A stretch of 64,000 bases of DNA from positions 1,054,001 to 1,118,000 of the forward strand of contig NZ_JALLPK010000001.1 of the NCBI RefSeq assembly GCF_023276375.1, read 5' to 3'. Position 1 is the stretch's first letter. Every line of letters begins with the position of its first letter. Positions 16,527 through 47,071 of the stretch are shown piece after piece. The notes under the pieces are model-generated. The model saw nothing but the letters and a program-made list of their open reading frames with translations, had not been told where the DNA came from and searched no databases. The position numbers and the translations under genes are program-made. The stretch comes from Halocatena marina. GTDB taxonomy: Archaea; Halobacteriota; Halobacteria; Halobacteriales; Haloarculaceae.

Positions 16527-19490
16527 ATGACGTCAGAGAACACAGATTCAGAACGGTGGAGGGTATCGCGCAGGAACTACGTAAGAGGGCTAGCTGGCAT
16601 GACAGCACTCGCGGCACTCGGGACCCGTGCTACTGGGACCATCCCGGATTCGAGCGTCACTCCGGTCGGGAATGGGAGCTACGCGACCGAGATGCCAGAC
16701 GACAGTAACATAACGGCTGATTACGCGAACCCACCGTCGACAAGCGAGGTGTACACCACAGCGAACGCGTCAGGACCGATTCCAACGAATGACTGGTGGA
16801 CAACAATTGCCTTGGGAACCAACGGTGACCCGCACGGTCAGGGAGCCGTCGTCGGCCTCCCCTACTACGCAGACACAAATGCACGTGGGCTAACGGTGCA
16901 GTACCCGACTGACTGGTTTGGGAATCCCGCTGATCAGGGATTTCTCAAAATGGACTACCTAAACACGCCACAGCTGACGATCGGAAACACCAATCAGAGC
17001 AGCTACGCGCAATCGGCTGCTGATGACTGGGGCGACTGGCACGTACGAACAACATGGGGTGAAGGAACCGGCGCAGCAATGGATGTAACGATGGCGCGTG
17101 GCTGTCCGTTGTTTTTCGTCGAGTACGGCGGTGGCAACGCCAGTCTGACCTTCGAAACCAAGGATAGTAGGCCCTCGAACGTGGTGCTGGCAGACGACGC
17201 GAACGTCTCCGTTTGGGCTGACCGAGGAAACGTCCTTGGTGTGTCTGTTGATGGTATCACAGCGGATAATTACACCAAACACTACGGTATTTTCGCACCG
17301 GCCAACACTAGTTGGTCTGGAACCGGGACCTCGACGCTGACGTCGTCGCTCAATGGCCAAGGCTATCTCACCGTAGCACTTCTGCCAGAGGCCAGCACGT
17401 CGGTCCTTGACCTTTTCGAGACGTACGCCTACAACTTCGTTCGCGGAACATCGGTCGACTGGACGTATACCGACACAGACTCGAACGGAAATGTCGTCTC
17501 TTCGGTCCGATCGACATTCTCATTCCAAACCGAGGAGAAAGCAGAGAGCACTGCCGGTGATAATGAGACGCTCACGTGTCTGTTCCCGCACCAATGGAAG
17601 CATTCCAGTGCTCCGCTGACAGACTATTCGTACTTTTCTCCTCGAGGGACGCTGAAGCTGCTCGCGGGAGCATCGTTCGAGACGGAGATGACCTACCCGG
17701 GAATTCTTCCCTTCTTAAACGACGAAGGAACCTACGACACGGGAACACTCGCCGGGTACGTCGACCGGCTGGAATCCAACGCACTCTGGCAGAATGGGAC
17801 CGGGAGTAATACGAACACCTACTGGACTGGCAAGGATTACAACCGAAACTGGCAGGTGATTCCGATCACCCAGCAGGTCGGTGACACCGCAGCACGCGAT
17901 TTCTTCCTCAACGGCATCAAGGATCGGTTGGGCGCTTGGCTGACAGCCAAAGACACGAGCCACAACACAGCCGAAGAAGAAGAGCTGTTCTACTACCACG
18001 ATACGGTTGGTTCATTGATCGGCTTTCCGGACGGCTTTGGTTCTGCTTCGATCTTGAACGACCACCACTTTCACTACGGCTACTTCGTGAACGCGGCGGC
18101 AGAGATCGCTCGCATGGACGAGCAGTGGGTTTCGGAATACGGCGCTATGGTGGACCTGCTCGTGCGTGAGTACGCCAACTGGGAGCACGCAAGTGGAGCC
18201 ACCCCATCGGGAACGCTACCGAAAGAGTCTCCGAAAGATGCGTTCCCATTCATGCGGAACTTCGATCCGTACGGTGGTCATTCGTTCGCAGGCGGGGACG
18301 ATGCCGCTGCAGATGGGAACAACCAAGAATCGTCTTCCGAGGCAGTCAACGCCTACGCTGGGATGATCAAGTGGGCCGAGATGACCGACAACACAGCCAT
18401 GCGAGACGCTGCGATCGCTGCCTACACTCACGAAGTCAACGCAATCTGGGACTACTGGTTCGATCCGAACCACGATTCATTCCCTGCAACGTGGGGCGAC
18501 ACCACGTCCTCGGGTGACGCCTGCAACGACGCCAACGCACCGCCATGGGGTGCGCCAGACTTCAATTACGCCTCGATTGTCTGGTCAACTGGATACGACC
18601 ATCACGTCTTTTGGGGTCCCCTCGATACGGTCGAAATCTTCGGGATCAACTGGCTTCCCATCAACGGGCATTCGCTGTATCTCGGTTGGGATCAGACCTA
18701 CGCTCGTGAAAACTGGAACGACATGACGCGCACACGAGAGCTGGAAACGACGTGTAAATCGGGTGTTGGTGCCCCAGACACGGACTTTCTGGGCGGCTGG
18801 AAAACCGCCGCGTGGGGCTATCGGTCACTGCACGACGCTGCGAACGCAGTTTCCCTCATGGAAGCCGAACTCCCGCTCGACGATTCGGGTGGTGGCGGTT
18901 CTTCGACGCCGTTCACCTACCACTGGGTGCACAATATGGACGCGCTCGGTACCGTCGACACCTCGATCGTGGCTGACGTTTCGATGTTCGCTGTCTTCGA
19001 CAACGGCGGTTCGAAGACCTACATCGCGTACAACCCGACCGATTCAACGACGACAGTGACGTTCTCTGATGGGTTCTCAATGGACGTGCCAGCCAACGCT
19101 CAGAAGACCTCTACTGGTTCGGTCACCAGCGGTCTGGCTGGTGGTTCGAACGGCGGAGGCGGCGGCGATTGTACGTCTAACTATTCGGGAACCACAGGCG
19201 ATGGCTGGTCGTTGACCACCTCTGATAGCACGAGCACCAACGAAACAGTCTGGGAGTTTGAACCCAGCAATACGGCAGGATGGGTAGACATTCAGTTCTA
19301 CGAGGACGCAAACGGCGACGGTAGCAAAGAGTGGGTTGGCTACCGGATGGACGATACAGACGGCGACAACGTTCATACGCACACTCGAAGCAACGCTGGT
19401 GACGGCGGTAGTATCGACGTCAGGTTCGTCTGGGACAGCGGCGCTGGTAGTCAGTACATGTCCAGTACACAGACGCACACCTACTGTTAG
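16527..19490 (+). CDS. secreted GH81 endo-1,3-beta-glucanase with C-terminal accessory domain
   Basis: 987 aa from the ATG at 16527, chosen because it places the Tat signal (SRRNYVRGLAG, residues 14-24) at the N-terminus; the frame extends upstream to 16428 without motifs. The catalytic domain spans roughly 60-800 and shows GH81 landmarks: NDWWTTI, PLFFVEYGG, a candidate catalytic acid Asp512 in NDHHFHYGYF, and Glu601/Glu605 in NNQESSSEA, then the WLPINGHSLYLGWD segment. GH81 enzymes invert and hydrolyse beta-1,3-glucans. After a GGGGG linker (about 875-880) follows a domain starting at Cys882 and ending in Cys987, unrecognised and possibly substrate binding. It faces the GH3 gene tail to tail. 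Confidence 0.92.
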   Translation: MTSENTDSERWRVSRRNYVRGLAGMTALAALGTRATGTIPDSSVTPVGNGSYATEMPDDSNITADYANPPSTSEVYTTANASGPIPTNDWWTTIALGTNGDPHGQGAVVGLPYYADTNARGLTVQYPTDWFGNPADQGFLKMDYLNTPQLTIGNTNQSSYAQSAADDWGDWHVRTTWGEGTGAAMDVTMARGCPLFFVEYGGGNASLTFETKDSRPSNVVLADDANVSVWADRGNVLGVSVDGITADNYTKHYGIFAPANTSWSGTGTSTLTSSLNGQGYLTVALLPEASTSVLDLFETYAYNFVRGTSVDWTYTDTDSNGNVVSSVRSTFSFQTEEKAESTAGDNETLTCLFPHQWKHSSAPLTDYSYFSPRGTLKLLAGASFETEMTYPGILPFLNDEGTYDTGTLAGYVDRLESNALWQNGTGSNTNTYWTGKDYNRNWQVIPITQQVGDTAARDFFLNGIKDRLGAWLTAKDTSHNTAEEEELFYYHDTVGSLIGFPDGFGSASILNDHHFHYGYFVNAAAEIARMDEQWVSEYGAMVDLLVREYANWEHASGATPSGTLPKESPKDAFPFMRNFDPYGGHSFAGGDDAAADGNNQESSSEAVNAYAGMIKWAEMTDNTAMRDAAIAAYTHEVNAIWDYWFDPNHDSFPATWGDTTSSGDACNDANAPPWGAPDFNYASIVWSTGYDHHVFWGPLDTVEIFGINWLPINGHSLYLGWDQTYARENWNDMTRTRELETTCKSGVGAPDTDFLGGWKTAAWGYRSLHDAANAVSLMEAELPLDDSGGGGSSTPFTYHWVHNMDALGTVDTSIVADVSMFAVFDNGGSKTYIAYNPTDSTTTVTFSDGFSMDVPANAQKTSTGSVTSGLAGGSNGGGGGDCTSNYSGTTGDGWSLTTSDSTSTNETVWEFEPSNTAGWVDIQFYEDANGDGSKEWVGYRMDDTDGDNVHTHTRSNAGDGGSIDVRFVWDSGAGSQYMSSTQTHTYC

Positions 19491-19514
19491 GCGTCCCTCT
19501 TTTCTGCGGTTTTT
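19491..19514 (+). terminator. T-rich terminator after GH81
   Basis: Directly after the stop codon come tttt (19500-19503) and ttttt (19510-19514), the kind of T-tracts that end archaeal transcripts without a hairpin. Confidence 0.5.
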
Positions 19515-19542
19515 ACTGACTGCTAGCGGCAATTACAATCGC

Positions 19543-21894
19543 TTATTCACCAGTTTCTGAATCGGGGGTCCAGTCGGTGTAGCCTGACGTTCCAACGGTA
19601 ATCGTCTCGGTTAGATTACCAACGGTAATCTCGTACTTCCCTTCTTCCAGCACGAGTCCCCTTTTCTCGCCTGTGATGTCGCCGGGAACGGTGAGGAGGG
19701 TTGAGAGTGATGCTTCGATTGTCACGCGCTTGCTCTGGCCCGCTTCGAGTGAGACACGCTCGAATCCCATGAGGCGTCTATCGGGACGAATAACCGAGCC
19801 ATATCCGTTCGTATTGAATACGTGGACGACCGCTGTTCCGTCACGGCCACCGGTGTTCGTGACGGTTACCGTGACTGTGAGTGATCCCCGTTCGGAGTGG
19901 CTCGGGAGCTTCCCCGGCGCGAGTCGAAGATTCGAATACTCGAACTCCGTATAACTGAGTCCGTATCCGAACGGATAGAGCGGCTCGTGGCTTTCAGAGG
20001 TGCTCGGGGCTCGCGGTGGACGTTGGTTGTGCACGTTCACAAGTTGGCCAGTGGATTGTGGCCACGTGAACGGTAGCTTTCCGGACGGATTCGTCTCACC
20101 GAAGATCACATTCGCAACGGCGGAGCCGGCCGCCGTGCCGGGCTGATAGGCCATAAGAACGGCGTCCAACTGATCGATCACCGTCTTCGTCCCCCGTGGT
20201 CGACCAGCGATGAGAACGCCAACGGCATTCGTATCCGTCTCGGCTACTGTGTCCACGAGTCGCTGTTGTGCGTCCGGGAGTGCTATCGTATTCACGTTTC
20301 CAAATCCTTCCGAGTACGGGCCTTCTCCGAGAACGAGAACCACCGCATCCGACGCTTCGGCAGCTGATCGGATCTCATCTTCGTTTGTGAACTCCCAGAT
20401 ATCGTCTCCGTACGGTTTGAACGTGTGTGCAGTCGGGATATGGGTAACCGTAGCTCTCGATCGAACGGCATCCCGAATCCCGTCGAGAACCGTCGTGGCT
20501 GCTGGTTCAGCGTCGATTCCCTTCGAAAGCCCCTGCCAACCGAGCGTCCATCCGCCCATCTGGTTTCGGACGCTGTCTGCGCTTGGGCCGGTCACCAACA
20601 GAGAATTCACATCCTGTGGGAGAGGAAGCACACCCTCGTTCTTGAGCAGTGTCATCGATTCGGTAGCCGCCTGCTCGCTGAGTTCGCGGTTGCTACCGAC
20701 AGCCTGCTCGGACTTTGAATGGAATGGCCGCGCAAACAGTCCAAGCCGCTCTTTGAGTCGGAGGACGCGACGAACCGCTTCATCAATCCGTGCCATCGGT
20801 ATCTCGCCGGTACGGATCAAATCGAGAAGCGTACTGACGAATCGTTCGGGATTGTCTGGCTCCATATACACATCGACGCCCGCAGTAACACCCTCACGAA
20901 CGGCATCGCGGAACGTTGGGACGTATTCGTGCATGTTCACCATTCGTTCGAAGTCATCCCAATCGGAGATAACGACACCCTCATACCCCCACTGATCACG
21001 GAGAATGTCTGTCAGAAGTTCTTTGGAGGCATGGGCAGGAACTCCGTTGACTGACCCGCTGTTCACCATGATCGATGCGCTCCCGGCATCGATCCCTGAT
21101 TTGAACGGAGGAAAGACCTTCTGTCGAAGTTCACGTAGTGGAATTAGGGCTGGACTTCGATCGTTGCCGTTCATCGGTTGGGAATAGCCGGCAAAATGCT
21201 TGGTCGTCGCACCGACCCGGATGCCGTTTCGCATCTCTTGGATCCCTTTCACCATCGATGAAACCATCTCTGACGTCAAGAACGGATCCTCACTGAAACC
21301 TTCGTAGTATCGACCCCACCGAGGATCTCGTTGAAGGTCTGCATCCGGTGCGAAATTCCAGTGAGCACCAATCGCCCGCACCGATTTACCGGTCTCACGC
21401 CCAATCTTCGAGGCGAGGTCTGGATTGCGCGTCGCACCGAGGCCGAGATTGTGCGGGTACGCGGTTGCACCATCGACAGACACGTTTCCGTGAACCGCAT
21501 CAATCCCGAACGCAAAAGGGATTCCGTGATCGGTGTTTGCTATCGCAAACCGCTGTAGATCATCAATGTTTCGCCGTAGTTCGTTTGGATCGAACGTCGG
21601 AGGATTGGCCCCACCTGTCAGTACGGATCCAACGTGAAGATCTGTGAATAGATGTCCGACCTCGGCGGGGTCGAGACTCTCTACGTTCACTTGGAGCATC
21701 TGACCGACTTTCTCTTCAATCGAGAGACCAGACAGAATCGATTCGACACGCTCTGATTGTCCCTGAGTTGTCGCTGATTTCGCGCTACTTGCTGTGAGTG
21801 CCACAGATCCAGTCAGCTGTAGAAACCGCCGCCGACTCGTCTGTAGGAACGCTTCGATTGACTGCTTGCTTTTTTCATTCATGGATGCTTTCAC
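19543..21894 (-). CDS. Tat-exported GH3 beta-glucosidase
   Basis: 783 aa; a second in-frame ATG at 21882 would shorten it by 4 residues. Tat motif SRRRFLQLTG (20-29) without lipobox, so a secreted soluble enzyme. The GH3 N-terminal barrel includes GIDAVHGNVSV, WNFAPDADLQRDPRWGRYYEGFSEDP, KHFAGYSQPMNGNDR and the nucleophile Asp311 in VVISDWDD. The alpha/beta sandwich (LLVTGPSADSVRNQMGGWTLGWQG, VLVLGEGPYSEGFGN) and an FN3-like C-terminus follow (GYGLSYTEFEYSNL..GRDGTAVVHVF). It removes glucose from the non-reducing end of beta-glucan oligosaccharides, complementing GH81. A TrmB regulator gene lies 92 bp upstream in the same direction, possibly in one transcript. Confidence 0.92.
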   Translation of the reverse strand: MKASMNEKSKQSIEAFLQTSRRRFLQLTGSVALTASSAKSATTQGQSERVESILSGLSIEEKVGQMLQVNVESLDPAEVGHLFTDLHVGSVLTGGANPPTFDPNELRRNIDDLQRFAIANTDHGIPFAFGIDAVHGNVSVDGATAYPHNLGLGATRNPDLASKIGRETGKSVRAIGAHWNFAPDADLQRDPRWGRYYEGFSEDPFLTSEMVSSMVKGIQEMRNGIRVGATTKHFAGYSQPMNGNDRSPALIPLRELRQKVFPPFKSGIDAGSASIMVNSGSVNGVPAHASKELLTDILRDQWGYEGVVISDWDDFERMVNMHEYVPTFRDAVREGVTAGVDVYMEPDNPERFVSTLLDLIRTGEIPMARIDEAVRRVLRLKERLGLFARPFHSKSEQAVGSNRELSEQAATESMTLLKNEGVLPLPQDVNSLLVTGPSADSVRNQMGGWTLGWQGLSKGIDAEPAATTVLDGIRDAVRSRATVTHIPTAHTFKPYGDDIWEFTNEDEIRSAAEASDAVVLVLGEGPYSEGFGNVNTIALPDAQQRLVDTVAETDTNAVGVLIAGRPRGTKTVIDQLDAVLMAYQPGTAAGSAVANVIFGETNPSGKLPFTWPQSTGQLVNVHNQRPPRAPSTSESHEPLYPFGYGLSYTEFEYSNLRLAPGKLPSHSERGSLTVTVTVTNTGGRDGTAVVHVFNTNGYGSVIRPDRRLMGFERVSLEAGQSKRVTIEASLSTLLTVPGDITGEKRGLVLEEGKYEITVGNLTETITVGTSGYTDWTPDSETGE

Positions 21895-21986: not shown

Positions 21987-23063
21987 CTATCGTTCGTCGA
22001 GTCGAACGTCTTTGAGAATGATTTTTTGTGCCTCGATATCTTCAAAGACAGCGCCCCAACTCCCAACAGCGAGTCGATCCTGTCCGGTGTCCAAGAAAAC
22101 GGTCGAATACGTCGAAAGCTCTTCGAGCGACGGCTGGCTGACGCCATCGAGGAGGCCAGGATAGAAGAGTCCTGAGATGGTCCCCGTAACAGTCCGTTCA
22201 CGTTCTGTTTCGATGTCAATCGCATCAATTTGAACAGTGACCGTTGCTCCGTCGTGATAGAGTGGTGCAACGTCTCGAATGAACTCCTCTAAGCTGATAT
22301 ACGTGGGAGATACTCTCCTGGTCGACTCAATTGGCTCGTACATCGACCACAGACACGTCTGGAAGTACCAGTGGTTGATTAGAGAGAGTATTTCATCGTT
22401 AATGAGAATGCCGTAGGTTTCTGGTGCACGCGAGTTTGGCATAAAATACGTGTGGTGTCGATCAAGCACCGCAAGAAATGGACCGGGAATTGTTACGACA
22501 CGAAGTTCGAGTGATTGATCGAGGAGGCCAGCTTCGTGGCAGCGTTTCCCTACTTTGTGTCCTTCATAGACGGATACACGGACGAACACACCGCGTTCGA
22601 TCGTAGCTCGAAGATCTGGTGCGAGTGATTCGAGCTGGTCAATAGTAAGCGCCATCTCGACACCGTGTGATGTCTCCGAGAGGCGATTTCGAACGCGCTC
22701 GATAACCGTATCGGAATTCTTGACAACACTGACACGGTAACTGTTTACCGCCGGTTGTTCCCACCGCTCTACCAACTCATCTGCGGCGTCAGTAAGTAAC
22801 GTACTACGATCACGCAGATGTGCAAAGATCTCGGTCGGTTCGCGGGGTTCTGCATGCAGTGTGTCTTGCTCGATGGTATCGACGAAACCCATGCTTTCGA
22901 GCGATCGAAGGGTGCTGTACACCTGTGATGTAGAGACCGTCGATCGGTTCGCTACGTCTGTCGCTGACAGTCGACCATGCTTGAGGAGTGTGAGATATGC
23001 ATCTGCTTGCGCACTCGTGAGGTCGGCGTGTTCTAACGCTTGCTGCAGCGTGGTTCGTTCCAT
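21987..23063 (-). CDS. TrmB family sugar-sensing transcriptional regulator
   Basis: 358 aa. N-terminal winged helix (LTSAQADAYLTLLKHGRLSATDVANRSTVSTSQVYSTLRSLESMGFVD, about residues 14-62), a coiled linker (RDRSTLLTDAADELVERWE), then the TrmB effector domain (about 105-355) with its second part rich in beta strands (TGTISGLFYPGLLDGVSQPSLEEL). TrmB proteins bind sugars and repress or activate sugar transport and metabolism genes. It sits immediately upstream of the GH3 gene on the same strand, so control of the GH81/GH3 pair and the ABC importer is a reasonable inference. I found no clear copy of the Halobacterium TrmB site TACT-N7/8-GAGTA nearby. Confidence 0.9.
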   Translation of the reverse strand: MERTTLQQALEHADLTSAQADAYLTLLKHGRLSATDVANRSTVSTSQVYSTLRSLESMGFVDTIEQDTLHAEPREPTEIFAHLRDRSTLLTDAADELVERWEQPAVNSYRVSVVKNSDTVIERVRNRLSETSHGVEMALTIDQLESLAPDLRATIERGVFVRVSVYEGHKVGKRCHEAGLLDQSLELRVVTIPGPFLAVLDRHHTYFMPNSRAPETYGILINDEILSLINHWYFQTCLWSMYEPIESTRRVSPTYISLEEFIRDVAPLYHDGATVTVQIDAIDIETERERTVTGTISGLFYPGLLDGVSQPSLEELSTYSTVFLDTGQDRLAVGSWGAVFEDIEAQKIILKDVRLDER

Positions 23064-24122: not shown

Positions 24123-24902
24123 TTATTCAATCCAATTAAGGTATGCCGTATTAATTTCGATGACTCCTGCGATGTTACGAATTTCCTGTGGAATGTCCTT
24201 GTAGAATGTCTCGTCGTCGATGCTCTCTACAGGGCCGTTCACGCTAATCGCACCAAGTAGATTGTCGACTTCTGTGGCGAGCGCCGTCGCAACGCACCGA
24301 ACACCATCAAACTGTTCTTCGTCGTCGAACGCAATCCCGCGTGACCGTATCTCCTCGAGCTCGGAACGAAGTTCACCCACATCGAATGTTGCCGTGTCGG
24401 TTTGTTCGGAGACGTTGTATTCGAGAATCGTATCGACGCGTTCGTCGTCCATCACCGAGAGCATCGCTTTCCCGGCGGCGGTGCTATGGAGCTCTTCTTG
24501 TGTCCCGAGATGTGTCCGGACCGAATCACGGTTGTGGCGGGTCGCTTGATAGAGTGTAATACCATTTCCCTGCCGCTCAACGACGAGCCGCACCGTCTCG
24601 CCAGTTGTTCTCGCCAGTCTGTCGACTCCTTCCTTGGCAATTTGGAAGAGATGCTCTCGTTCCCGGGCGGCACCACCATATGTCAGCGGACGAAGTCCAA
24701 GTTGGTACTTATTATCACGCTTTTCAACAAAATTCTGCTCTCGGAGGGTTGCAAGATAGTGATAGACGGTACCCTTTGAGAGACCAACTGCGTGACTGAG
24801 CTCTGTTACACCTGCATGCTCGCAGCGTCGTAACTCTTCAAGGATTCGAAGGGCGTTTTCGACCGATTGTATCGTTTTGCGATTTCCCTTATCTTGCTTC
24901 AT
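24123..24902 (-). CDS. IclR family transcriptional regulator
   Basis: 259 aa from the ATG at 24902 (MKQDKGNRKTIQSVENALRILEELRR); the frame extends to 24929 but that region overlaps a candidate operator and codes for nothing family-like. Winged HTH at residues 15-75 (VTELSHAVGLSKGTVYHYLATLREQNFVEK), then the IclR effector domain (LDRLARTTGETVRLVVERQGNG.., HSTAAGKAMLS.., RGIAFDDEEQFDGVRCVATAL). IclR proteins typically control sugar or aromatic catabolism. It lies 70 bp downstream of a Gfo/Idh/MocA gene in the same direction, so the two probably form a unit, with autoregulation through the dyad at 24906-24934. Confidence 0.9.
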   Translation of the reverse strand: MKQDKGNRKTIQSVENALRILEELRRCEHAGVTELSHAVGLSKGTVYHYLATLREQNFVEKRDNKYQLGLRPLTYGGAAREREHLFQIAKEGVDRLARTTGETVRLVVERQGNGITLYQATRHNRDSVRTHLGTQEELHSTAAGKAMLSVMDDERVDTILEYNVSEQTDTATFDVGELRSELEEIRSRGIAFDDEEQFDGVRCVATALATEVDNLLGAISVNGPVESIDDETFYKDIPQEIRNIAGVIEINTAYLNWIE

Positions 24903-24905
24903 ACA

Positions 24906-24934
24906 GGTTCCTGTATCGCGCTGATACAAGAACC
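24906..24934 (-). promoter_or_regulatory. 12-bp near-perfect dyad directly upstream of the IclR start, candidate operator
   Basis: ggttcctgtatc (24906-24917) and gatacaagaacc (24923-24934) match as reverse complements at 11 of 12 positions around a 5-bp centre. The site ends 3 bp before the ATG at 24902. A second partial dyad, gacacaggttctgtc, lies just upstream. The length and symmetry suit an IclR dimer or tetramer. Confidence 0.6.
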
Positions 24935-33917: not shown

Positions 33918-34649
33918 TCAGCGATCAAGCACTGTTGCGCCGTGTTCCAGCGATTCGAGCGGGTCATTCGGTTCATCGTGTTCGTACACGAATGCTGTCA
34001 CATCATTGGTACGGGCTGCGTCGAGACATTGTTCGATGTCGACATCACCAGTCCCAACTTCGACCGGTGTTGCGGTTGCGGCATCACAGTCCGTGATATG
34101 GACCAAATCGATGCGGTCAGCGTACGTCTCGATGAACGCCACTGGATCACTCCCACCCGCTTCGACCCACCCAGTATCGACCTCAATCCCGAGTGCGTCG
34201 CTGCTCTGTTGTACGAGTTCGTCGAGAGCGGTCTGCCCCTCGACAGCGACGAGTTCGTGATCGTGATTGTGATAATGGAGCGTTCTGCCGGAATCAGCCA
34301 CCTGTTCAGCGAGGTTCGTCAACCGAGTTGCAGTCTCTGTCACAGCGTCGACATCAGCAAAGAGCTCTTGGTCGAGCCATGGAACGACAAGCGTGTCACA
34401 ACCGACCTCAGCGTATGCTTCGATTGTGCCTTCGAGGTCCGATTCCAGTGCTTCGATACCGACGTGTGCGGATACCGCTTCGAGATTAGTCCGATCAAGA
34501 GCGTCTGCGACTGCCGTCGTATCAGCATCTGCGAATCGATGGGCGAACTCGACGCCGTCAAAACTCGTCTCACCCACTCTGTCGAGCAGTGACGGGAGTG
34601 ATTCATCGATGTTGCGAAGTGTGTACAACTGTATTGCTGTTGTGCTCAC
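33918..34649 (-). CDS. sugar phosphate isomerase/epimerase-like TIM-barrel protein
   Basis: 243 aa of the xylose isomerase-like/AP endonuclease 2 fold: MSTTAIQLYTLRN (strand 1), FDGVEFAH, AVSAHVGIEAL, DTLVVPWLDQELF, LHYHNHDHELV (metal-ligand His/Glu region), GIEVDTGWVEAGG and LVHITDCD. Such proteins isomerise or epimerise sugars, and some cleave 3-keto-glycosides. No signal peptide. It is divergent from a Gfo/Idh/MocA oxidoreductase across 263 bp, a pairing common in inositol and keto-sugar pathways. Confidence 0.87.
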   Translation of the reverse strand: MSTTAIQLYTLRNIDESLPSLLDRVGETSFDGVEFAHRFADADTTAVADALDRTNLEAVSAHVGIEALESDLEGTIEAYAEVGCDTLVVPWLDQELFADVDAVTETATRLTNLAEQVADSGRTLHYHNHDHELVAVEGQTALDELVQQSSDALGIEVDTGWVEAGGSDPVAFIETYADRIDLVHITDCDAATATPVEVGTGDVDIEQCLDAARTNDVTAFVYEHDEPNDPLESLEHGATVLDR

Positions 34650-38713: not shown

Positions 38714-38767
38714 TCGACAATCACGTTGTCGATAGTCGGCCTCAGTGCTGGCGTCTCCAGCGCTGAG
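38714..38767 (+). repeat. two stem-loops in the gap between the first two GH5 genes
   Basis: tcgacaa/ttgtcga (38714-38720 and 38726-38732; loop 5 nt) is followed by ctcagtgctgg/ccagcgctgag (38741-38751 and 38757-38767; loop 5 nt, one G-U pair). Both are compact enough to fold in RNA. They could separate transcripts, stabilise ends or mark processing. Confidence 0.55.
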
Positions 38768-38800
38768 ATCAAATCATTTCATTGGTCAATTCGACGAATA

Positions 38801-41122
38801 ATGTCACACGACAATCAAACGAACGAAAGCAACACTGGATCGCATAGCAACCGAACGATCGACACGCTATCCCGGCGCGATGTCCTGAAGTCCACGGTTG
38901 CGGCTGGTGCATTTGCGACTGGTATTGGCACAGGCGTTGTCGGTACAGCTGGAGCAGCGGTGATCCCGACGCCACCGCTGCACGTCGACGGTAACCTGAT
39001 CAAAGATCCCGACGGCGCAACGGTTTCACTGCGCGGCGTCAACATTGCGGATCCAAAGCGAATCAACGTAACGTCGCAGGCACGCGGAAAGACAGCCGAG
39101 CAGGTCGTCACTATGCTGACCGACACCAGCCAGAACTGGCATTCGCGGGCGATTCGAATACCAGTTCAGCCAGTCGATATTGGCGAACATCCACCCGGAG
39201 AGGGGCCATCACCGGTGGCGTTCACTCAAAGCCAACTCGAAAGCTACCTCACAGATCACCTCGATCCGCTGATCGAGCACTGCTTAGCGCGAGGGGCGTA
39301 CGCCATCGTTGACTATCACCGTCACCGCGATATCCAGTGGACGAACACGTCGCTCCACGACGAGGTCGAACTGTTCTGGGATACGGTCGCACCACGGTAT
39401 GCCGATCAGCCACACGTCATGTACGAACTGTACAACGAACCACAGGAACCCGGTATGTGGGGTGATCCGACGCAAAAGTCCAACTGGGCGGATGTCTGGC
39501 GCGACTGGAAATCCACGGCCCAGCCGTGGGTCGACCTGATCCGCTCACACGCACCGGACAACCTCGTCCTGATCGGGTCACCGAGCTGGACCCAGAGTCC
39601 CGAGGGTGCGCTCGTCGAACCATTTGATGGCAGTAATCTCGCCTATACCTACCACGTCTATCCAGGCCATCAAGTGAGCCAATCCAGCTGTCACTGCTGG
39701 GACGATGCCACAGTGAATGGCGAGGGCGTCGCGCAGGTGTACGAAGAGTATCCTCTGTTTGTCACGGAGTTCGGCTGGCAAGAGGGTGCTGGGCGGTGGA
39801 TCGGCGGTACGGATACGTTTGGTTCGGCGTTTCTCGACTGGCTCGAACAGAGCGATGCGATCCACTGGACTGCGTGGGTTGGCGACCCGGTCTGGTTGCC
39901 AGCAATGTTCGACATGCCGTTCACTGATATCAGCTGGGAGGACAACATCGGAAATCCGTACGAAGAAGACGTTCCGACGGAGTGTCCGAATCTCCCCTGT
40001 GAGTGGTCTGTGCTCAGCGGCGACGGGCAGATGGGTGATGACATCAAGAACACGCTGAACAGTCTCCGTAATGACAACCCACCAACTGTCCCCTACGACG
40101 AACAGCTGCCGCCGGTGCCGTCTGGTCTCACTGTCGATGGTGTGACCGAGGTCACCGTCGACATCTCGTGGTCAGCCGTGACGGATAACGGCGACGCCGG
40201 ATTGAGCCACTACAACATCACTCTCGATGGGACGAAGCGCACAGAGGCCCCGAAGGGGACAACAAGCACTACGATCTCAGAACTCACTGCTGATACGACG
40301 TACACGATCGGCGTATCGGCGGTTGACCGCGCGCGTAACGAATCCTCGACGGTAACTGCGCAAGCGACGACGGACGTTTTCGAGGATTCAACGGCACCGT
40401 CGGTGCCAGCAAATCTCTCCTCGCCATCGAACACCTACCGATCGGTGACAATCTCGTGGGACGCCTCGACCGATGCGGGGGATGCAGAGACAGCTGGACT
40501 TGGTCACTACAACGTCTACATGGACGGTACCAAAGAAACAGAAATCGAAGCAGGAACAACGGAGGCGATTCTGACCGGATTGGACTCGGACACCACCTAC
40601 GAATTCGGTGTGTCGGCGGTCGACCGTGCGGGCAACGAGTCCACACAATCGACGCTGTCGGTGACGACCGATCTGGCTGGGGCGGGTCCAGATGACTTGC
40701 TGATCAACGACTTCGATGGATCGCCAGCGTGGCCAACCTCGAACGACCTCGGCAACTGGACGGGTTCGGGTGGCTTTGAGAGCATCGGTGTGACTGATGG
40801 CACACTGCGCATCGACTACAACGCCAGCGGCTGGTACGGCACCAAGGTGGCCCAAGACATCTCGAACTACTCGGCGCTCCGGATGAAGGTCGTCGGCGAC
40901 AACGGCGGCGAACACAGAGATATTCAGCTCTCATTCGGTGGCGTCCAGCAGATGCTCCCTCAAGTGACCGACAACACGATCGAGACGACGCCGACGATCG
41001 TCTCGGTTGATCTCGAAGCCGCAGGCGTGGACCGTGCATCACCCGGTCAGCTCGATCTCCAGTTCTACAACGGGGGCAACAGCGCTATCGAAATCGAGGA
41101 GCTCTGGCTCGAACAGAGCTGA
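38801..41122 (+). CDS. secreted GH5 endoglucanase with two FN3 domains and C-terminal binding-like module
   Basis: 773 aa from the ATG at 38801; the frame runs back to 38726 but that stretch covers stem-loops and shows no signal. Tat signal LSRRDVLKSTVAAGA (24-38). The GH5 barrel is a close paralogue of the preceding protein (VNIADPKRINVTSQARGKTAEQV, YNEPQEPG acid/base, FVTEFGW nucleophile, SCHCWDD). Two FN3 domains follow (PVPSGLTVDGVTEVTVDISW.. and PSVPANLSSPSNTYRSVTISW..), then the same type of C-terminal module in a diverged form (LLINDFDGSPAWPTSNDLGNW). Tandem duplication with later divergence is the simplest history. Confidence 0.92.
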   Translation: MSHDNQTNESNTGSHSNRTIDTLSRRDVLKSTVAAGAFATGIGTGVVGTAGAAVIPTPPLHVDGNLIKDPDGATVSLRGVNIADPKRINVTSQARGKTAEQVVTMLTDTSQNWHSRAIRIPVQPVDIGEHPPGEGPSPVAFTQSQLESYLTDHLDPLIEHCLARGAYAIVDYHRHRDIQWTNTSLHDEVELFWDTVAPRYADQPHVMYELYNEPQEPGMWGDPTQKSNWADVWRDWKSTAQPWVDLIRSHAPDNLVLIGSPSWTQSPEGALVEPFDGSNLAYTYHVYPGHQVSQSSCHCWDDATVNGEGVAQVYEEYPLFVTEFGWQEGAGRWIGGTDTFGSAFLDWLEQSDAIHWTAWVGDPVWLPAMFDMPFTDISWEDNIGNPYEEDVPTECPNLPCEWSVLSGDGQMGDDIKNTLNSLRNDNPPTVPYDEQLPPVPSGLTVDGVTEVTVDISWSAVTDNGDAGLSHYNITLDGTKRTEAPKGTTSTTISELTADTTYTIGVSAVDRARNESSTVTAQATTDVFEDSTAPSVPANLSSPSNTYRSVTISWDASTDAGDAETAGLGHYNVYMDGTKETEIEAGTTEAILTGLDSDTTYEFGVSAVDRAGNESTQSTLSVTTDLAGAGPDDLLINDFDGSPAWPTSNDLGNWTGSGGFESIGVTDGTLRIDYNASGWYGTKVAQDISNYSALRMKVVGDNGGEHRDIQLSFGGVQQMLPQVTDNTIETTPTIVSVDLEAAGVDRASPGQLDLQFYNGGNSAIEIEELWLEQS

Positions 41123-41220: not shown

Positions 41221-42471
41221 ATGACACACGACATGAACGCAGAACGAACCGACACACTGCCAGAAGGAGACGAATCCACAGCCCGTGACCAGCGGATTGT
41301 ACGGAACACGAGCCGGCGCGTCTTCCTACAGGCTGTCGGTGCCGGTGCAGTGCTCGGGGCCTTCACGATTGGCCACGCAGAAGCGGCTGGAATTCCGACG
41401 CCGTGGCTCCATCGGGACAGGAATCTTATCCGAGATCCAAGCGGAAATAAGGTGATTCTCCGTGGGGTAAACATCCCCGACGTGAGCCGTCTGAACGCGG
41501 ACAACTACTACTCCTACACAGCTGCGGAGTATATCGATTGGGCCACGAACGGGAACGCTCCCCCTGGGACCGACGATCCGAACGGCTGGTACGCTCGGGT
41601 GATTCGGTTGCCTGCACAACCAGTCGATATCGGTGGCCACTCGCCCGGCGCGGCGCCTCCCGCACCGGCGTTCACCCAGAGTCAACTCGATAGCTACGTG
41701 ACGAATCATCTTCGCCCCGCAGTTGACCACTGCCGTGATCGGGGTGTCTACTGCATCGTCGATTATCACCGTCACCGCGGCCAGTACGACGAGAATCTCT
41801 GGTTCACGAGCGACGCTATCGACAATGAGGTCCAACTGTTCTGGAACACTGTTGCTCCCGAGTTCGCCAACGACTCGCACGTCCTATTCGAGGTGTACAA
41901 CGAGCCGACCGAGCCGTATCCCGACGACGTGGACCCGGCCTCGGATTCGCAGGCGGCGCTGGACGCGTGGAATCAGTGGAAGCAGAACGCTCAGCCGTGG
42001 GTCGATACGATCCGCCAGCACGCGCCACAGAACCTCGTACTCATCGGATCGCCACGGTGGTCCCAGTGGACCGCTCAAGCCCCTCGAAACGAGTTCGATG
42101 GAGATAATCTCGCGTATACAGGCCACGTGTACGGCCAAGACAATCTCAAGCCGTTCGCTGACTCGTTCGGCGCACCGTCCCAAGACGTGCCCGTCTTCCT
42201 GACTGAATGGGGATACAAGACCGGTCGAGCACCCTACTTGTCTGGTACAACGGCTGTGGAGGGCCAGATGTTTCTGGATCTCTTCGACAACTACCCGATC
42301 CATCCCATTCCATGGGCCTTCGACTTCCGGTGGGTGCCCCAGTTCTTCAACAGGCAGACGCGCGACGATTGGGAACTGCTCCGCAACAACGAGACCCACG
42401 GTGGACTCGTGAAGGATCTGCTCTATGAGAACCGAAACAACGATCTCCCGACCGATGGAGGGAGCGCTTGA
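41221..42471 (+). CDS. secreted GH5 glycanase, catalytic domain only
   Basis: 416 aa. Tat signal TSRRVFLQAVGAGA (30-43). The GH5 barrel shares the start AAGIPTPWLHRDRNLI with the first GH5 enzyme, keeps YCIVDYHRHRG, acid/base Glu in VYNEPTEPY and nucleophile Glu in FLTEWGY, but lacks the SCHCWDD Cys pair and all C-terminal modules. An extra loop near YPDDVDPASDSQAALDAWNQWKQ follows the acid/base. It probably cleaves soluble or shorter glucans released by the modular enzymes. The next gene starts 33 bp after its stop. Confidence 0.9.
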   Translation: MTHDMNAERTDTLPEGDESTARDQRIVRNTSRRVFLQAVGAGAVLGAFTIGHAEAAGIPTPWLHRDRNLIRDPSGNKVILRGVNIPDVSRLNADNYYSYTAAEYIDWATNGNAPPGTDDPNGWYARVIRLPAQPVDIGGHSPGAAPPAPAFTQSQLDSYVTNHLRPAVDHCRDRGVYCIVDYHRHRGQYDENLWFTSDAIDNEVQLFWNTVAPEFANDSHVLFEVYNEPTEPYPDDVDPASDSQAALDAWNQWKQNAQPWVDTIRQHAPQNLVLIGSPRWSQWTAQAPRNEFDGDNLAYTGHVYGQDNLKPFADSFGAPSQDVPVFLTEWGYKTGRAPYLSGTTAVEGQMFLDLFDNYPIHPIPWAFDFRWVPQFFNRQTRDDWELLRNNETHGGLVKDLLYENRNNDLPTDGGSA

Positions 42472-42504: not shown

Positions 42505-43926
42505 ATGACAGAAGACACACACGATACCGGCTCGACAGAGGACCGAGAGACGAACAGCGCTACCAGTAAACAGCGATCGAGCAATCGATTTGTCGACGTA
42601 TTCGGTGGTGCTTCACGCCGGGATTTCCTGAAGGCGGGTGCCGCCATCGGGGTCGGCAGTCTCGCACTCGGTTTCGGAAGTTCGGCGATGGCCGCGAAAG
42701 TCGAGGAAAAGTGCAACACTGATTACGGCAAGATCGACGTCGGGAACGGGTTCACGCTGATGGACAACCAGTGGGGGATGGCAGGTGCCGATCAGTGTAT
42801 CTGGCTCAACGACGACGGAAGCTATGGGTACGACTTCGACGCATCGAACGCAGGCGGCGGGATCAACTATCCAGAGGTGTTCATCGGAACGCGACCGTGG
42901 GGTGACGACACGGGCGTCGCCGAGTTCCCTCTCCAGCGCCAAGACGTTGATGAGTTTGTGATGGAGGTTGATGCCGACAGCAATATCTCTGGCGGCGAGT
43001 GGGACTGGGCCGAAGAGTGGTGGTTGATGGAACAGCCCCCTGACCAGCAGACCGAAACACACCAGTACGAGATCATGCTGTTGCTCGATTGGGGTGGTGG
43101 CCACGATCACGGAGGTGTGCAGGTTCCCGGTGCCTGGACCGACCGCTTTGGCAACACGGTTGATCTCTGGACCGTCTATAACTCCGGTGGAACGAGCGCC
43201 AAGTTCTACATCTTCCGGATTCAGGGTGGTCACGATGGCGGCAAGATCGACATGGCAGAGATCATCGAGTATCTCAGTACGAACGAGGGAATCCGAGGCG
43301 ACCTGTGGCTTTCGGGTATCGAACTCGGAAACGAGTACTGGAGTGGTGCCGTGGGACAGACCACCTACAACACGTTCAATGTCACTATCAACGGCTCGAC
43401 GTACACGAGCGGGAGCAGCGACGGAGCCGAGACGCCAACAGCAACACCGACAGACACACCCACCGACACACCAACTGACACGCCGGGTGGCGGGCTAGTG
43501 ATCAACGACTACGACGGCTCACCCGCGTGGTCGTCGAACACGAACGATCTGGGCCAGTGGTGTGGCGGCGGCTCGTTCCAGAACGGCGGTGGGGCAGTCT
43601 CTGGGGACGCCCTCGTTCTCGAGTACAACAACGGCGGGTGGATGCAAGAACAGATCAACCAGGACATCAGCGATTACACGACGCTCGTTCTCACCGTGAA
43701 AGGCGCATCTGGCGGCGAGGAAAGCGGCATTCAGTTCGAGATGGGCGGCGTGAGCACGTCACTTGCTGCGGTGACAAGCGACAGCATCGGCACGAGTTAC
43801 TCTGATCTCACCGTCGATCTGGAGTCGGCGGGCGTCGATCGCTCTGCCTCCTCGCTGTCGCTGCGACTGAACTTCTGGGGAGCCGGAAGCAGCACTCTCT
43901 CCATCCAAGAACTCAGACTCGAATAG
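42505..43926 (+). CDS. secreted GH12 endoglucanase with C-terminal binding-like module
   Basis: 473 aa. Tat signal ASRRDFLKAGAAIG (36-49). The catalytic domain (about 68-300) has the GH12 landmarks: NQWGM, nucleophile Glu189 in QYEIMLLLDWGG, and acid/base Glu277 in SGIELGNEYWSG. GH12 enzymes are retaining beta-1,4-glucanases or xyloglucanases. A TPTATPTDTPTDTPTDTP linker leads to a 143-residue module (LVINDYDG...) that at DNA level differs from the one in the first GH5 gene at only about 32 of 432 bases. Spacing of 33 bp before and 27 bp after suggests operon membership. Confidence 0.9.
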   Translation: MTEDTHDTGSTEDRETNSATSKQRSSNRFVDVFGGASRRDFLKAGAAIGVGSLALGFGSSAMAAKVEEKCNTDYGKIDVGNGFTLMDNQWGMAGADQCIWLNDDGSYGYDFDASNAGGGINYPEVFIGTRPWGDDTGVAEFPLQRQDVDEFVMEVDADSNISGGEWDWAEEWWLMEQPPDQQTETHQYEIMLLLDWGGGHDHGGVQVPGAWTDRFGNTVDLWTVYNSGGTSAKFYIFRIQGGHDGGKIDMAEIIEYLSTNEGIRGDLWLSGIELGNEYWSGAVGQTTYNTFNVTINGSTYTSGSSDGAETPTATPTDTPTDTPTDTPGGGLVINDYDGSPAWSSNTNDLGQWCGGGSFQNGGGAVSGDALVLEYNNGGWMQEQINQDISDYTTLVLTVKGASGGEESGIQFEMGGVSTSLAAVTSDSIGTSYSDLTVDLESAGVDRSASSLSLRLNFWGAGSSTLSIQELRLE

Positions 43927-43953
43927 CCAAGTAACCACACGTCCAACAGAACA

Positions 43954-45573
43954 ATGACACCAGACGATACATTCAAGCAGCAATCGAACGACAACATCAG
44001 AAGCGAAGACGAATCGTTCGGTACTGTTCATTCGAAATCGACTCGTGACAGTACCGCAGTTCGTTCGAGTTTGTCGTTCAGACGTCGGACTGTTTTACGA
44101 GCAGTGGGTGGCGGTATGGCACTCGGGCTTTTCGGCAGCAGTCCGACGAGCGGGGCAGCGGCCTCGTTCGGTGATGGGGTCAATCTCCAGCCCTCGTATT
44201 TCTGTCGCGGTGACCAGAATTTGGGCTGGGGTCTCATGAACCAGTATCCGGATATCCAGACGGTACGGATCGAAATTGAGCCGTTCTCGTTCAACGAGAT
44301 CAGCACGACGAGAGACGACGCAAAGCGATGGATCGACGAGGCCAACAGTCACGGATACGAAGTGATCGCAAGCTACCATCACTATCCGGATAACGGCTCG
44401 TCCAACGCGTCTGCACTGCAGACCGCGGCCGACTGGTGGGTCGATCACTATAGCTACCTCTCACAAGACTCGCCGTTCACCATTAATATGATGAACGAGT
44501 GGGGTGATCACAGCGTCACGGCTAGCCAGTACGCGTCGGCGTACAACGATGCACTCAGTACAGTTCGGTCGGGGACGAACTACTCCGGTCCAATTGTCTG
44601 TGACGCCCCCGGCTGGGGACAGGAGACACACCGACTTGCCGACGCTACATCACAGATCGACGATGACAACATCATTTGCTCGGTACACGTGTACCCGAGC
44701 GGATGGAATCAAGAGGTCAACGAGGCGCTACAGCCGTCCCATCTGGATGTGGTGGACGAGACGGGGTATCCCTGTATGGTTGGAGAGTTCGGAAACTGGG
44801 CATCGAGTCCCAGTGGGGCCGACTGGTCCGCGATTGTCGACCACGCTAAATCCTTGGGCTGGCCGGTGATCGGATGGGCATGGAACGGTGATGGCTCTGG
44901 CGATCCGATGAATATGTCGTCTCCTTACTGGGGCGACGACTGTGGTGCGACCTCGTATTCGGCATCTTCGTACTTCGATGTCGTGTACAACAAGCTCGGT
45001 AACGGCGGGAATGGCGGTGATGACACGACGGCTCCGAGCCGACCCCCTAATCTCTCGGTGACGGGCACAACAAGCTCTTCAGTTAGTGTGAGCTGGGACG
45101 GGTCCACTGATTCTGGCGGAAGCGGGCTGGCTCATTACGCAGTGTCGGTCGATGGCTTGCAGGACCAGACCGTCTCTGCTGGGACCACTACAGCAACCGT
45201 CGACTCACTTGCTGCGGAGACGAGCTACGAGATCGGCGTCTCTGCGGTTGATGGCGCAGGGAACGCATCGAACACGAGTACCGTTACAGCGACAACTTCC
45301 ACAGGGGATGGTGCAGGAGACGTGCTCGCGGAGGTAGAGCCGAGCACGACGACTGCGACCGTTGGCGAGCGGATCACGTTCCAAGTCGCGGACACTTCCG
45401 GCGATGAGCGGTGGATCACAGCTCTTGACTGGACGTTCGGGGACGGCACGACCGCGAGGGGCTGGTGGAACGAACACGCCTACGCGGCCGCAGGCACTTA
45501 CACGGTCGCGGTGACGGCCACCGCTAACGACGGAGACACGACCACTGACGAGGTGACCATCACTGTCTCCTGA
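43954..45573 (+). CDS. secreted GH5 mannanase-like enzyme with FN3 and PKD domains
   Basis: 539 aa. Signal around FRRRTVLRAVGGGMALGLFG (Tat). The barrel (about 72-350) has FGDGVNLQPSYF, YEVIASYHHYPDNG, acid/base Glu in NMMNEWGD, HVYPSGW and nucleophile Glu in MVGEFGNW. This compact form resembles GH5 beta-mannanases more than the neighbouring cellulase-like GH5s. It is followed by an FN3 domain nearly identical to that of the first GH5 protein and by a PKD domain (WTFGDGTTARGWWNEHAYAAAGTYTVAVTAT). Substrate (mannan or glucomannan) is inferred from family resemblance only. Confidence 0.87.
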   Translation: MTPDDTFKQQSNDNIRSEDESFGTVHSKSTRDSTAVRSSLSFRRRTVLRAVGGGMALGLFGSSPTSGAAASFGDGVNLQPSYFCRGDQNLGWGLMNQYPDIQTVRIEIEPFSFNEISTTRDDAKRWIDEANSHGYEVIASYHHYPDNGSSNASALQTAADWWVDHYSYLSQDSPFTINMMNEWGDHSVTASQYASAYNDALSTVRSGTNYSGPIVCDAPGWGQETHRLADATSQIDDDNIICSVHVYPSGWNQEVNEALQPSHLDVVDETGYPCMVGEFGNWASSPSGADWSAIVDHAKSLGWPVIGWAWNGDGSGDPMNMSSPYWGDDCGATSYSASSYFDVVYNKLGNGGNGGDDTTAPSRPPNLSVTGTTSSSVSVSWDGSTDSGGSGLAHYAVSVDGLQDQTVSAGTTTATVDSLAAETSYEIGVSAVDGAGNASNTSTVTATTSTGDGAGDVLAEVEPSTTTATVGERITFQVADTSGDERWITALDWTFGDGTTARGWWNEHAYAAAGTYTVAVTATANDGDTTTDEVTITVS

Positions 45574-45811
45574 TCAGTCTGGAGTCGTTGGTTCCGGTCG
45601 TTCGAACCGAACGACTCAGTCTCGAGATTCCATAGCATACCTCGCTCAGAATCAAATCTGAGAACGACCACGCGGGCGAAATCGGCCAACCCAAGACATC
45701 GAATCCAAACAGCCGAGTCGGTCTTAGTCCCACTATTTGCATATACAGAAAAGTAATATAATATTCATATCTAGAAATAAAATTTAAGGTTTAGTAAAAT
45801 AATTGGTTCGT

Positions 45812-47071
45812 ATGGTCAAACGAAGGGCCATACTGAAAAGTAGTATCGCATTCGGAACCCTTGGACTAGCAGGCAAAGTCGTGGGACAGCAGTCGACAGG
45901 ATCTCTCGAAACGACGCCAGCAGCTGACGATCAGCTGCCGTCGACAATAACGGCAGAGACGACGATTGCCGAGCTGTGTCCTCAGTACAACGACCCATAC
46001 TATGTCCCGCGTGACTTCCTCGATTACCTTCCGGGACAGAGTTCATCAAGCTCCGTAGCAGGAATGACAGATTCCGAGAAGGCAGAGCGGTTCGACTACA
46101 ATATCGAGGCAGTTCGGAATAAAGTTGAGGATGGTACGCTCACACTCGGTGAGTTGGGCACGCAAGCCTTGCCATTTGTCCAGACTCTTGCGGCCGCTGA
46201 TTTCCCGGCTCACGCAACCGTCAAGCTCCTTCCACGGCTTGCGTTGGTTCCCGACGAAACAGAACAACTGTCTCTTCACAATCAACCCCAGAGTGTTTGG
46301 GATGAGACTGCGGGTCCCGTCACTGCAAACAACAATCCGGCACAGTTCACGCAGAATCAGTGGCCGACCGATGCCCGCACATACAGTCCCGAGGAGGTCG
46401 CTATTCGCGATCGAGTTCACGACCAGCCAATGAACGAGGAGTGGGGAAGTGCTGCTCCGCTTCCAGACGATGTGCTTTACAGCGACACAAACCCCGTTCT
46501 CGATGCGGCGAGTCAGAAGGTTCATCCGGTGACTGGTGAGTCTCTCGATGGTGACGGTTTTACCGCCACTGCACCGATGGTAGCTGAGATCAAAATGCAC
46601 GTTCTCAACGACGGCTACTGGTATCAGTATCTCAAATTCAAGAACGTTAGTTCGATTCCCTACCATCTCGATGGTGCCATTCTCTGGTGGTTAGGACCGT
46701 CGGGAATGGGTCGAAACCTAGCAGACGGTCACTACAACAATGTTCAGCGTCCGAATCCATCTCTCGGTCATCCACAACGAGACGTCATTGAGGTCATCCA
46801 CGACGGTTACGAGGGTCTCTCTGTGTACGCGATTCGACTGGCCTACCACGATCAGCCCTACCACATGCGGACTGCCTACCCAAACCAGTGTTGGTCACTC
46901 GAAATTGGTACGCCCGCGTATGCGACGACCGTATCGTATCCGACGCCCGCGGAGCGCCAACAGCTCGTCGATACGATGTTGGATTCACTCCACGTCGAGC
47001 TGGAGACGAATATGGATATGAATGATGATCTCTTAGAGGCGGTTGACCTCAAACATCGGGTCCCAAACTAG
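45812..47071 (+). CDS. exported protein of unknown function next to the glycanase cluster
   Basis: 419 aa from the ATG at 45812 (MVKRRAILKSSIAFGTLGLAG, a Tat-like signal with KRRAILK; cleavage near VVGQQ). I recognise no family. Features: a Ser/Thr-rich early region, SEKAERFDYNIEAVRNKVEDGTLTLGELG (helical), then a region rich in aromatic residues and His: MHVLNDGYWYQYLKFKNVSSIPYHLDGAILWWLGP, HYNNVQRPNPSLGHPQRDVIEVIHDGYEGLSVYAIRLAYHDQPYHM. The many Trp/Tyr/His could line a sugar- or metal-binding site. It follows the mannanase-like gene by 238 bp on the same strand, with its own AT-rich upstream region. Confidence 0.75.
   Translation: MVKRRAILKSSIAFGTLGLAGKVVGQQSTGSLETTPAADDQLPSTITAETTIAELCPQYNDPYYVPRDFLDYLPGQSSSSSVAGMTDSEKAERFDYNIEAVRNKVEDGTLTLGELGTQALPFVQTLAAADFPAHATVKLLPRLALVPDETEQLSLHNQPQSVWDETAGPVTANNNPAQFTQNQWPTDARTYSPEEVAIRDRVHDQPMNEEWGSAAPLPDDVLYSDTNPVLDAASQKVHPVTGESLDGDGFTATAPMVAEIKMHVLNDGYWYQYLKFKNVSSIPYHLDGAILWWLGPSGMGRNLADGHYNNVQRPNPSLGHPQRDVIEVIHDGYEGLSVYAIRLAYHDQPYHMRTAYPNQCWSLEIGTPAYATTVSYPTPAERQQLVDTMLDSLHVELETNMDMNDDLLEAVDLKHRVPN

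Follow-up and report, generated by a model that had tools for sequence, protein, structure and literature searches.

A glycan utilization locus of Halocatena marina with a candidate keto-glycoside route for imported oligosaccharides

Gene content and extent of the locus

We analyzed a 64,000 nt stretch of the haloarchaeon Halocatena marina (hereafter the window; G000:C1:1054001-1118000, part of a 3.9-Mb contig of an assembly flagged as 9% contaminated), of which positions 16527-47071, with secreted glycoside hydrolases (GHs) and an ATP-binding cassette (ABC) importer, had previously been described from the sequence alone as a 30-kb beta-glucan utilization locus (the original prediction). Scans of the window for open reading frames (ORFs) and protein families recovered every gene named in that prediction, and the locus genes that we searched for occupy the same places in a second assembly of the species (G283). 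The comparisons described below delimit a conserved core (24123-45573, from an IclR regulator through the GH5 genes) in which secreted GHs, a glycan-type importer and a regulator are clustered, with conservation across species, and we consider it with high confidence to be a glycan utilization locus. With a probability of about 0.5, and judging from gene content and homology, this core would allow the Halocatena clade to use beta-1,4-linked plant glycans, probably a cellulose-type glucan with glucomannan, by import followed by C3 oxidation, beta-elimination, hydration and reduction. The features of the region are the following:

16527..19490 (+), GH81 endo-beta-1,3-glucanase with a twin-arginine translocation (Tat)-type signal (PF17652, C-terminal domain, E 1e-37); tail weakly CBM56-like (CBM_56, 23.6 bits vs. 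a cut-off of 27)
19543..21894 (-), GH3 with a Tat-type signal (Pfam); top NCBIfam score to exo-beta-1,3/1,6-glucosidase, under the cut-off (422 vs. 1330 bits)
21987..23063 (-), TrmB sugar-responsive regulator (PF11495, 4e-37; PF01978, 8.3e-15)
24123..24929 (-), IclR-family regulator at the outer end of the conserved core (Pfam; same place in relatives)
24973..26040 (-), GfoA, Gfo/Idh/MocA dehydrogenase, proposed glycoside 3-dehydrogenase (best PDB match DgpA, 7xr9, 2e-34, then DgpA1, 9m3d, 1.6e-32; EKP and DxGxH motifs)
26358..27470 (-), Opp-type ABC ATPase 2 (Pfam)
27464..28543 (-), Opp-type ABC ATPase 1 (Pfam)
28543..29649 (-), ABC permease, DppC-like (Pfam)
29615..30619 (-), ABC permease, DppB-like (Pfam)
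30703..32493 (-), SBP_bac_5 lipoprotein receptor with a Tat-type signal and, by eye, a lipobox (PF00496, 3.1e-42)
33918..34649 (-), TIM barrel (hereafter TIM), proposed 3-keto-O-glycoside beta-eliminase (AtOGE, 8bvk, 9.3e-27; five named metal/catalytic residues kept)
34913..36013 (+), GfoB, Gfo/Idh/MocA, proposed 3-keto-glucose reductase, often paired with the TIM gene (Pfam; best PDB match DgpA, 1.4e-16; adjacency)
36636..38690 (+), GH5a, GH5 with fn3 and module X (38253-38687) and a Tat-type signal (domain scans)
38726..41122 (+), GH5b, GH5 with two fn3 and module X (40688-41119) and a Tat-type signal (domain scans)
41221..42471 (+), GH5 with a Tat-type signal, no accessory domain found (Pfam, motif script)
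42505..43926 (+), GH12 with module X (43492-43923) and a Tat-type signal (Pfam borderline, PDB)
43954..45573 (+), GH5-like mannanase with fn3, PKD and a Tat-type signal (PDB matches)
45803..47071 (+), UNK422, secreted-type; its family is unnamed and, in other genomes, is encoded close to cellulases or chitinases (no significant Pfam or NCBIfam match)

The scores of TrmB, IclR, the permeases, the ATPases and the SBP_bac_5 receptor are all above their Pfam cut-offs, in agreement with the two regulators and the full family 5 importer, a complete SBP_bac_5/Opp set, that had been predicted. The seven GHs expected to carry Tat-type signals are all present and possess twin-arginine motifs; six of these were detected by script, as were those of the receptor and of the last gene (45803-47071), while the motif of the GH81 (SRRNYVRG) and the lipobox of the receptor were spotted by eye. 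The three PF00150 GH5 domains showed E-values of 1.5e-29, 2.7e-35 and 5.1e-29, and the GH3 one of 8.9e-78; the GH12 is slightly short of its Pfam cut-off (26.9 vs. 27 bits) and matches a GH12 xyloglucanase in the PDB (2.7e-4). Pfam detected no GH domain in the fifth endo-enzyme (43954-45573); in the PDB it is closest to 4fk9 (1.5e-12), an entry that bears the name 'Cellulose-binding family II' and that we take to be a GH5_8 mannanase, and it also matches 3wsu, named 'Beta-mannanase' (1.5e-8).

The core recurs in five more genomes of the Halocatena clade. The order GH5, GfoB, TIM, receptor, GfoA, IclR is common to H. salina, H. pleomorpha, Actinarchaeum halophilum (G227) and YIM A00013, and it is also conserved from GfoB onward in YIM A00010, where the contig ends before the GH5 end; this shared order indicates that the clustering is not due to chance. 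The first three organisms also contain the closest named relatives of the window TIM gene in a TIM tree. The H. salina locus sits on a 532-kb plasmid and reads IclR, GfoA, two ATPases, two permeases, receptor, a small protein, TIM, GfoB, three GH5, GH12-like, GH5, a PKD protein, GH10, GH5 and a UNK422 homolog.

Conversely, we rejected positions 16527-47071 as a single conserved unit, and the stretch originally taken as one locus divides into two parts: no match to TrmB, GH3 or GH81 was found past IclR within approximately 9 kb in H. salina or 11 kb in A. halophilum, whereas the approximately 1 kb covered past IclR in H. pleomorpha, YIM A00010 and YIM A00013 is too short to bear on this point. 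The GH81-GH3-TrmB segment (16527-23063), which adjoins the core, most likely constitutes a unit of its own for beta-1,3-glucan, because of the GH81 itself, the top score of its GH3 to exo-beta-1,3/1,6-glucosidase, although under the cut-off, and the weak CBM56 tail. A functional link to the core may still exist, since TrmB and GH3 genes lie beside related importers or GfoB-TIM pairs in H. urmianum, N. aibiense, G223 and G086. A glycan locus is well supported, but the term 'beta-glucan' proved too narrow, given that the locus also encodes a mannanase-like enzyme and that mannan-type loci contain related cores.

Candidate keto-glycoside module and its linkage to glycan import

The TIM protein, previously regarded as an isomerase or epimerase, is indeed a TIM barrel, and its closest match is the beta-eliminase AtOGE. 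It aligns with AtOGE (8bvk) over residues 5-231 (9.3e-27), with the next PDB chain far behind (1e-8), and the AtOGE positions H132, H134, D163, H189 and E233 are identical in TIM, as counted by eye along the alignment; all five positions would therefore fit a Mn2+-dependent beta-eliminase site of the AtOGE type. AtOGE (8BVK) is described as a Mn2+-dependent O-glycoside beta-eliminase for which 3'-keto-cellobiose, unlike 3'-keto-maltose, is a substrate (PMC10628242). Both predicted Gfo/Idh/MocA oxidoreductases, GfoA and GfoB, are present. The nearest solved relative of GfoA is DgpA (PDB, 2e-34), and the DgpABC proteins are described as converting puerarin via 3''-oxo-puerarin; GfoA also matches the NCBIfam levoglucosan dehydrogenase (2.7e-31), under its cut-off. 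GfoB, whose gene adjoins that of TIM, likewise has DgpA as its best PDB match (1.4e-16). The similarities to AtOGE and DgpA lend real support to a putative oxidative route, which the original prediction had raised and which would here acquire a concrete form.

A scan of GTDB genomes with the TIM profile retrieved 426 relatives; among the best 80 of these 426, GfoB is present at 19 loci, in 18 of them at 1.3 kb or less from TIM, and an importer permease at 11, all of which (11/11) contain GfoB. The association of permease and GfoB has a hypergeometric probability of 7e-9, a figure that ignores kinship and near-duplicate loci. In the TIM tree (94 rows, 93 of them different and with some genomes present twice; 33 GfoB-linked), GfoB-linked TIMs appear in several clades, with nine label changes, at least eight of which are forced by well-supported branches, vs. 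a mean of 27.6 after shuffling; these changes do not distinguish gains from losses, and indicate that different TIM lineages pair with GfoB.

Relatives of the receptor at E<=1e-60 occur in 72 of the 293 genomes of the order. Outside of the species of the window, 13 genomes contain a receptor with at least 50% identity, of which we read 12 (all except G156, and G240 through plasmid pHTUR02); GfoA, TIM and GfoB (the trio) were all within the stretch read in 10 of these 12, with the TIM genes of G090 and G227 drawn from a separate analysis. Related importers occur in mannan-type contexts (with GH2, AGE epimerase, mannonate dehydratase and alpha-galactosidase), in xylan-type contexts (alpha-glucuronidase, GH3, and xylose dehydrogenase or glucuronate isomerase) and beside GH3/TrmB, which argues for import of oligosaccharides and not of peptides only. 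A search of genome contigs with the receptor retrieved no relative.

Two minor observations concern the neighborhoods of these importers. Close to their glycan importer, 10 of 11 relatives encode a 77-aa protein of two-helix membrane type by eye (e.g., L004:17130-17363 and L045:25961-26194), as do L093-L096, with no convincing match in the window. Additionally, proteins annotated as HEAT-repeat are found near xylan-type importers in three haloarchaeal plasmids (L094:7831-8739, L095:10074-10982 and L096:12409-13317), and the product of L146:11198-12097, from the genome of the window, may resemble them by eye.

Gene content, order, conservation, active-site residues and family relations are read at the sequence level, and from them we infer the substrate, the activity of each enzyme and the order of the steps. 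In the proposed scheme, the secreted GH5, GH12 and mannanase-like enzymes would cut the polymer outside the cell, and the lipoprotein receptor and the Opp-type ABC transporter would bring in the oligosaccharides. GfoA, with NAD+, would then oxidize the chain end at C3, and TIM, as a Mn-dependent beta-eliminase, would cleave it into a shortened chain and 2-hydroxy-3-keto-glucal; this product would be hydrated to 3-keto-glucose, a step that might be served by a TIM paralog or by TIM alone, in the way that LgdB2 partly does, and finally reduced to glucose by GfoB with NADH. Since GfoA would use NAD+ and GfoB NADH, the net outcome would be a redox-neutral hydrolysis. Beta-elimination would also erase the configuration at C2, so that glucosyl and mannosyl ends could yield the same intermediate, which could be useful on glucomannan. 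If correct, this would be an archaeal cellulose degrader that relies on oxidation and beta-elimination instead of phosphorolysis or hydrolysis; the mechanisms of haloarchaeal cellulose degradation are called almost unexplored and the import of cellulose-derived sugars poorly studied (PMC10267330).

The arrangement has partial counterparts in bacteria. The AtOGE operon of Agrobacterium tumefaciens (PMC10628242) resembles the scheme proposed for the core in a TIM beta-eliminase with the same metal/catalytic residues, a Gfo reductase and the logic of oxidation, elimination, hydration and reduction. It differs in that C3 oxidation is due to a flavoenzyme, which the second Gfo may replace in the core, and in a second sugar-phosphate-isomerase-like protein, AtHYD, a hydratase by preliminary evidence, of which we saw no equivalent in the core; the latter is, additionally, archaeal and accompanied by secreted cellulases. 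The levoglucosan cluster of Bacillus smithii (PMC7676230) contains an ABC importer, the dehydrogenase LgdA, the Gfo reductase LgdC, and LgdB1 and LgdB2, whose annotation is sugar phosphate isomerase; it thus resembles the scheme proposed for the core in combining a dehydrogenase, a Gfo reductase, a TIM-type eliminase (as read from the annotation) and an ABC importer; however, it has two TIM-type genes instead of one, an importer annotated as a sugar ABC transporter, and an anhydrosugar as substrate.

Among haloarchaea, the cellulase and mannan clusters described in PMC10267330 and PMC10963439 also encode GH5/GH12 cellulases or exported mannanases, with import of oligosaccharides proposed, and the mannan cluster includes an IclR regulator and a protein assigned to 'GH109' for which homology to sugar dehydrogenases is stated. 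For the latter cluster, the paper on mannan proposes GH2 hydrolysis and entry through ManD and the Entner-Doudoroff pathway, and not a keto-glycoside route; the word 'Gfo' does not occur in either main text. Compared to a Bacteroidetes polysaccharide utilization locus, the core also clusters secreted hydrolases, a glycan receptor, an importer and a regulator, but the SusC/SusD pair of the former, of which a Pfam scan of 38 window ORFs showed no family, contrasts with the ABC import, Tat-type export and archaeal regulators of the core. The keto-glycoside module, in bacteria, and haloarchaeal glycan loci are each known, and what would be new is their union in one locus; we recognized no work on a keto-glycoside route in archaea in the literature searched, which covers few subscription papers.

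Alternative fates for the imported sugars

Several results weigh against the keto-glycoside route. No hydratase, in the form of a second TIM gene, was found among the scanned genes of the locus, and GfoA is far under the NCBIfam cut-offs for glycoside and disaccharide 3-dehydrogenases (44.9 vs. 750 and 34.8 vs. 650 bits). All five site residues are conserved throughout the 28 aligned TIM rows (the protein of the window accounts for two), both with and without linkage to an importer, and thus mark the TIM family and not this locus; likewise, 61 of the 80 TIM loci lack GfoB at the threshold used, some of them being cut by contig ends. The importer occurs without TIM and GfoB in G271, and without any of the trio in G265 (20 kb read); a second importer copy of G265, on an H. 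urmianum plasmid, lacks the trio within 25 kb, with a TIM gene elsewhere on the plasmid (these are two of the G265 receptor copies, two further ones lying outside the sequence read). Additionally, leaderless GH2 genes occur near the same genes in G070, G249, G230, G279 and H. turkmenica, leaderless GH3 genes in G005 and G228, and both in G179, indicating that the trio is no simple replacement for hydrolysis.

The genome of the window contains five TIM homologs outside of the locus (six matches including its own). It also contains, by homology, a second, diverged cassette with an importer, Gfo genes, a GfoB-like gene, TIM and IclR (L148:4235-15932; G000:C1:1669234-1680931), near a Glycoamylase/DUF3131 protein.

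The coexistence of the trio with leaderless GH2 or GH3 at several loci fits a different division of labor, in which a cytoplasmic GH3 encoded elsewhere hydrolyzes the imported oligosaccharides while the trio handles other glycosides, such as aryl-glucosides or levoglucosan, or a side product. The predicted lack of GH94 phosphorylases holds genome-wide, as does that of GH1 (no match at E<=1e-3), the single GH2 match has a Tat-type signal by eye and a GH116 is under the cut-off; however, the predicted lack of a cytoplasmic beta-glucosidase has to be qualified, because one of the three GH3 of the genome (the exported one of the window, a leaderless one and a third) is a potential candidate also against our reading. 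This leaderless GH3 (G000:C1:1204882) lies approximately 120-130 kb from the locus, and AtOGE itself favors 3-keto-phlorizin over 3'-keto-cellobiose by approximately 61-fold in kcat/Km, as stated in PMC10628242. Nevertheless, this GH3 sits beside another importer of the SBP_bac_5/Opp type, which would be xylan-type judging from a fused ATPase as in xylan-type plasmid loci, and its top score is to a beta-xylosidase/arabinosidase model, under the cut-off (690 vs. 1050 bits); moreover, we saw no gene for a cytoplasmic exo-glycosidase next to the core in any of the window, H. salina and G227. We regard hydrolysis by this GH3 as possible, although well short of probable.

We consider it improbable that the Gfo genes and TIM form an inositol-type pathway, with an IolG-like dehydrogenase and an IolE-like dehydratase, unrelated to the glucan enzymes. 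Ketone-assisted elimination is common to inositol-type and keto-glycoside chemistry, and TIM and GfoA do score with the NCBIfam models iolE (66.9 bits) and iolG (89.4 bits), but far under their cut-offs (290 and 355, respectively), while their best solved matches are AtOGE and DgpA; besides, they are linked to glycan importers and no further iol-type family appeared among the 38 ORFs of the window scanned with Pfam. Very unlikely, in turn, is a complete digestion of cellulose outside the cell by the exported GH3, with glucose entering by other carriers and the importer taking peptides. The Tat-type signal of the GH3, the oligopeptide C-terminal domain found by Pfam on both ATPases, and the PDB matches of the receptor, weak and to chains named oligopeptide-binding (one of them also named mannoside-binding), would agree with it; conversely, the neighbors of receptor relatives include GH2, GH3, alpha-glucuronidase and mannan-type genes, and neither H. 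salina nor G227 has the GH3 next to the core. Overall, the observation behind the original prediction is confirmed, and its interpretation, right in outline, is partly supported; for its oxidative route, the AtOGE and DgpA similarities stand against the missing hydratase and the leaderless GH2 and GH3 near the trio in other genomes.

UNK422, module X and minor observations

UNK422 gave a single Pfam line, EutK_C, under the cut-off (E 0.037), and its profile retrieved no PDB chain at E<=10. Module X, of approximately 143 aa, is C-terminal on GH5a, GH5b and GH12; the three copies produced no Pfam line even at E<=10, and one copy no NCBIfam line, while the seven PDB matches of its profile are chance-like, the best (6e-4) being to a chain named spike protein/5HB-H2. 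The copies from GH5a and GH12 share 92.9% DNA identity over 439 bases, which suggests recent copying or gene conversion.

Module X was found in 16 of the 293 genomes, with up to ten matches each and two of the 16 being assemblies of the window's species, and UNK422 in 33, including all 16 with module X. Outside of the window, module X and UNK422 are in one reading frame at 7 of 10 UNK422 loci. Cellulase-type GH genes are near UNK422 at five of these ten loci, whose neighbors were scanned in part, and GH18 chitinases with CBM5/12 at two (G005 and G024); at two more (G265 and G003) the neighborhood contains only a separate module-X protein, recognized by homology to window genes, and at the last (G227) neither. 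UNK422 and module X are thus two unnamed families linked to polysaccharide degradation. An alignment of 15 UNK422 sequences contains 75 invariant positions, including H266, H323, H349 and H397, which suggest an enzyme or a metal site while proving neither. UNK422 had no match to lytic polysaccharide monooxygenases (LPMOs) in the Pfam scans, and LPMO_10 occurs in 4 of the 293 genomes; three of these belong to the 33 that contain UNK422, and the genome of the window is not one of the four. Very tentatively, UNK422 could represent a new secreted class that would attack insoluble beta-1,4-linked polysaccharides (cellulose, chitin) or loosen them in the place of LPMOs in most carrier haloarchaea, with module X as a companion cellulose-binding module, although we find this joint proposal doubtful; if true, and together with the keto-glycoside route, haloarchaeal cellulose use would be oxidative or non-hydrolytic at two steps.

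With regard to regulation, a TrmB motif (TACT-N7/8-GAGTA) had no matches in the window. A palindrome located between TIM and GfoB, TGAACGTTCA, is present once in the window vs. 0.10 expected; it was dropped as a regulatory motif, with 3 occurrences vs. 3.77 expected in the window when allowing two mismatches on 12 bases, and 12 exact ones genome-wide. The aligned upstream regions contain only short conserved blocks, which may be promoters. Lastly, the G+C content of the hydrolase block (38001-46000) is 0.56-0.59 in 2-kb steps, vs. 0.46-0.57 in the rest of the window.

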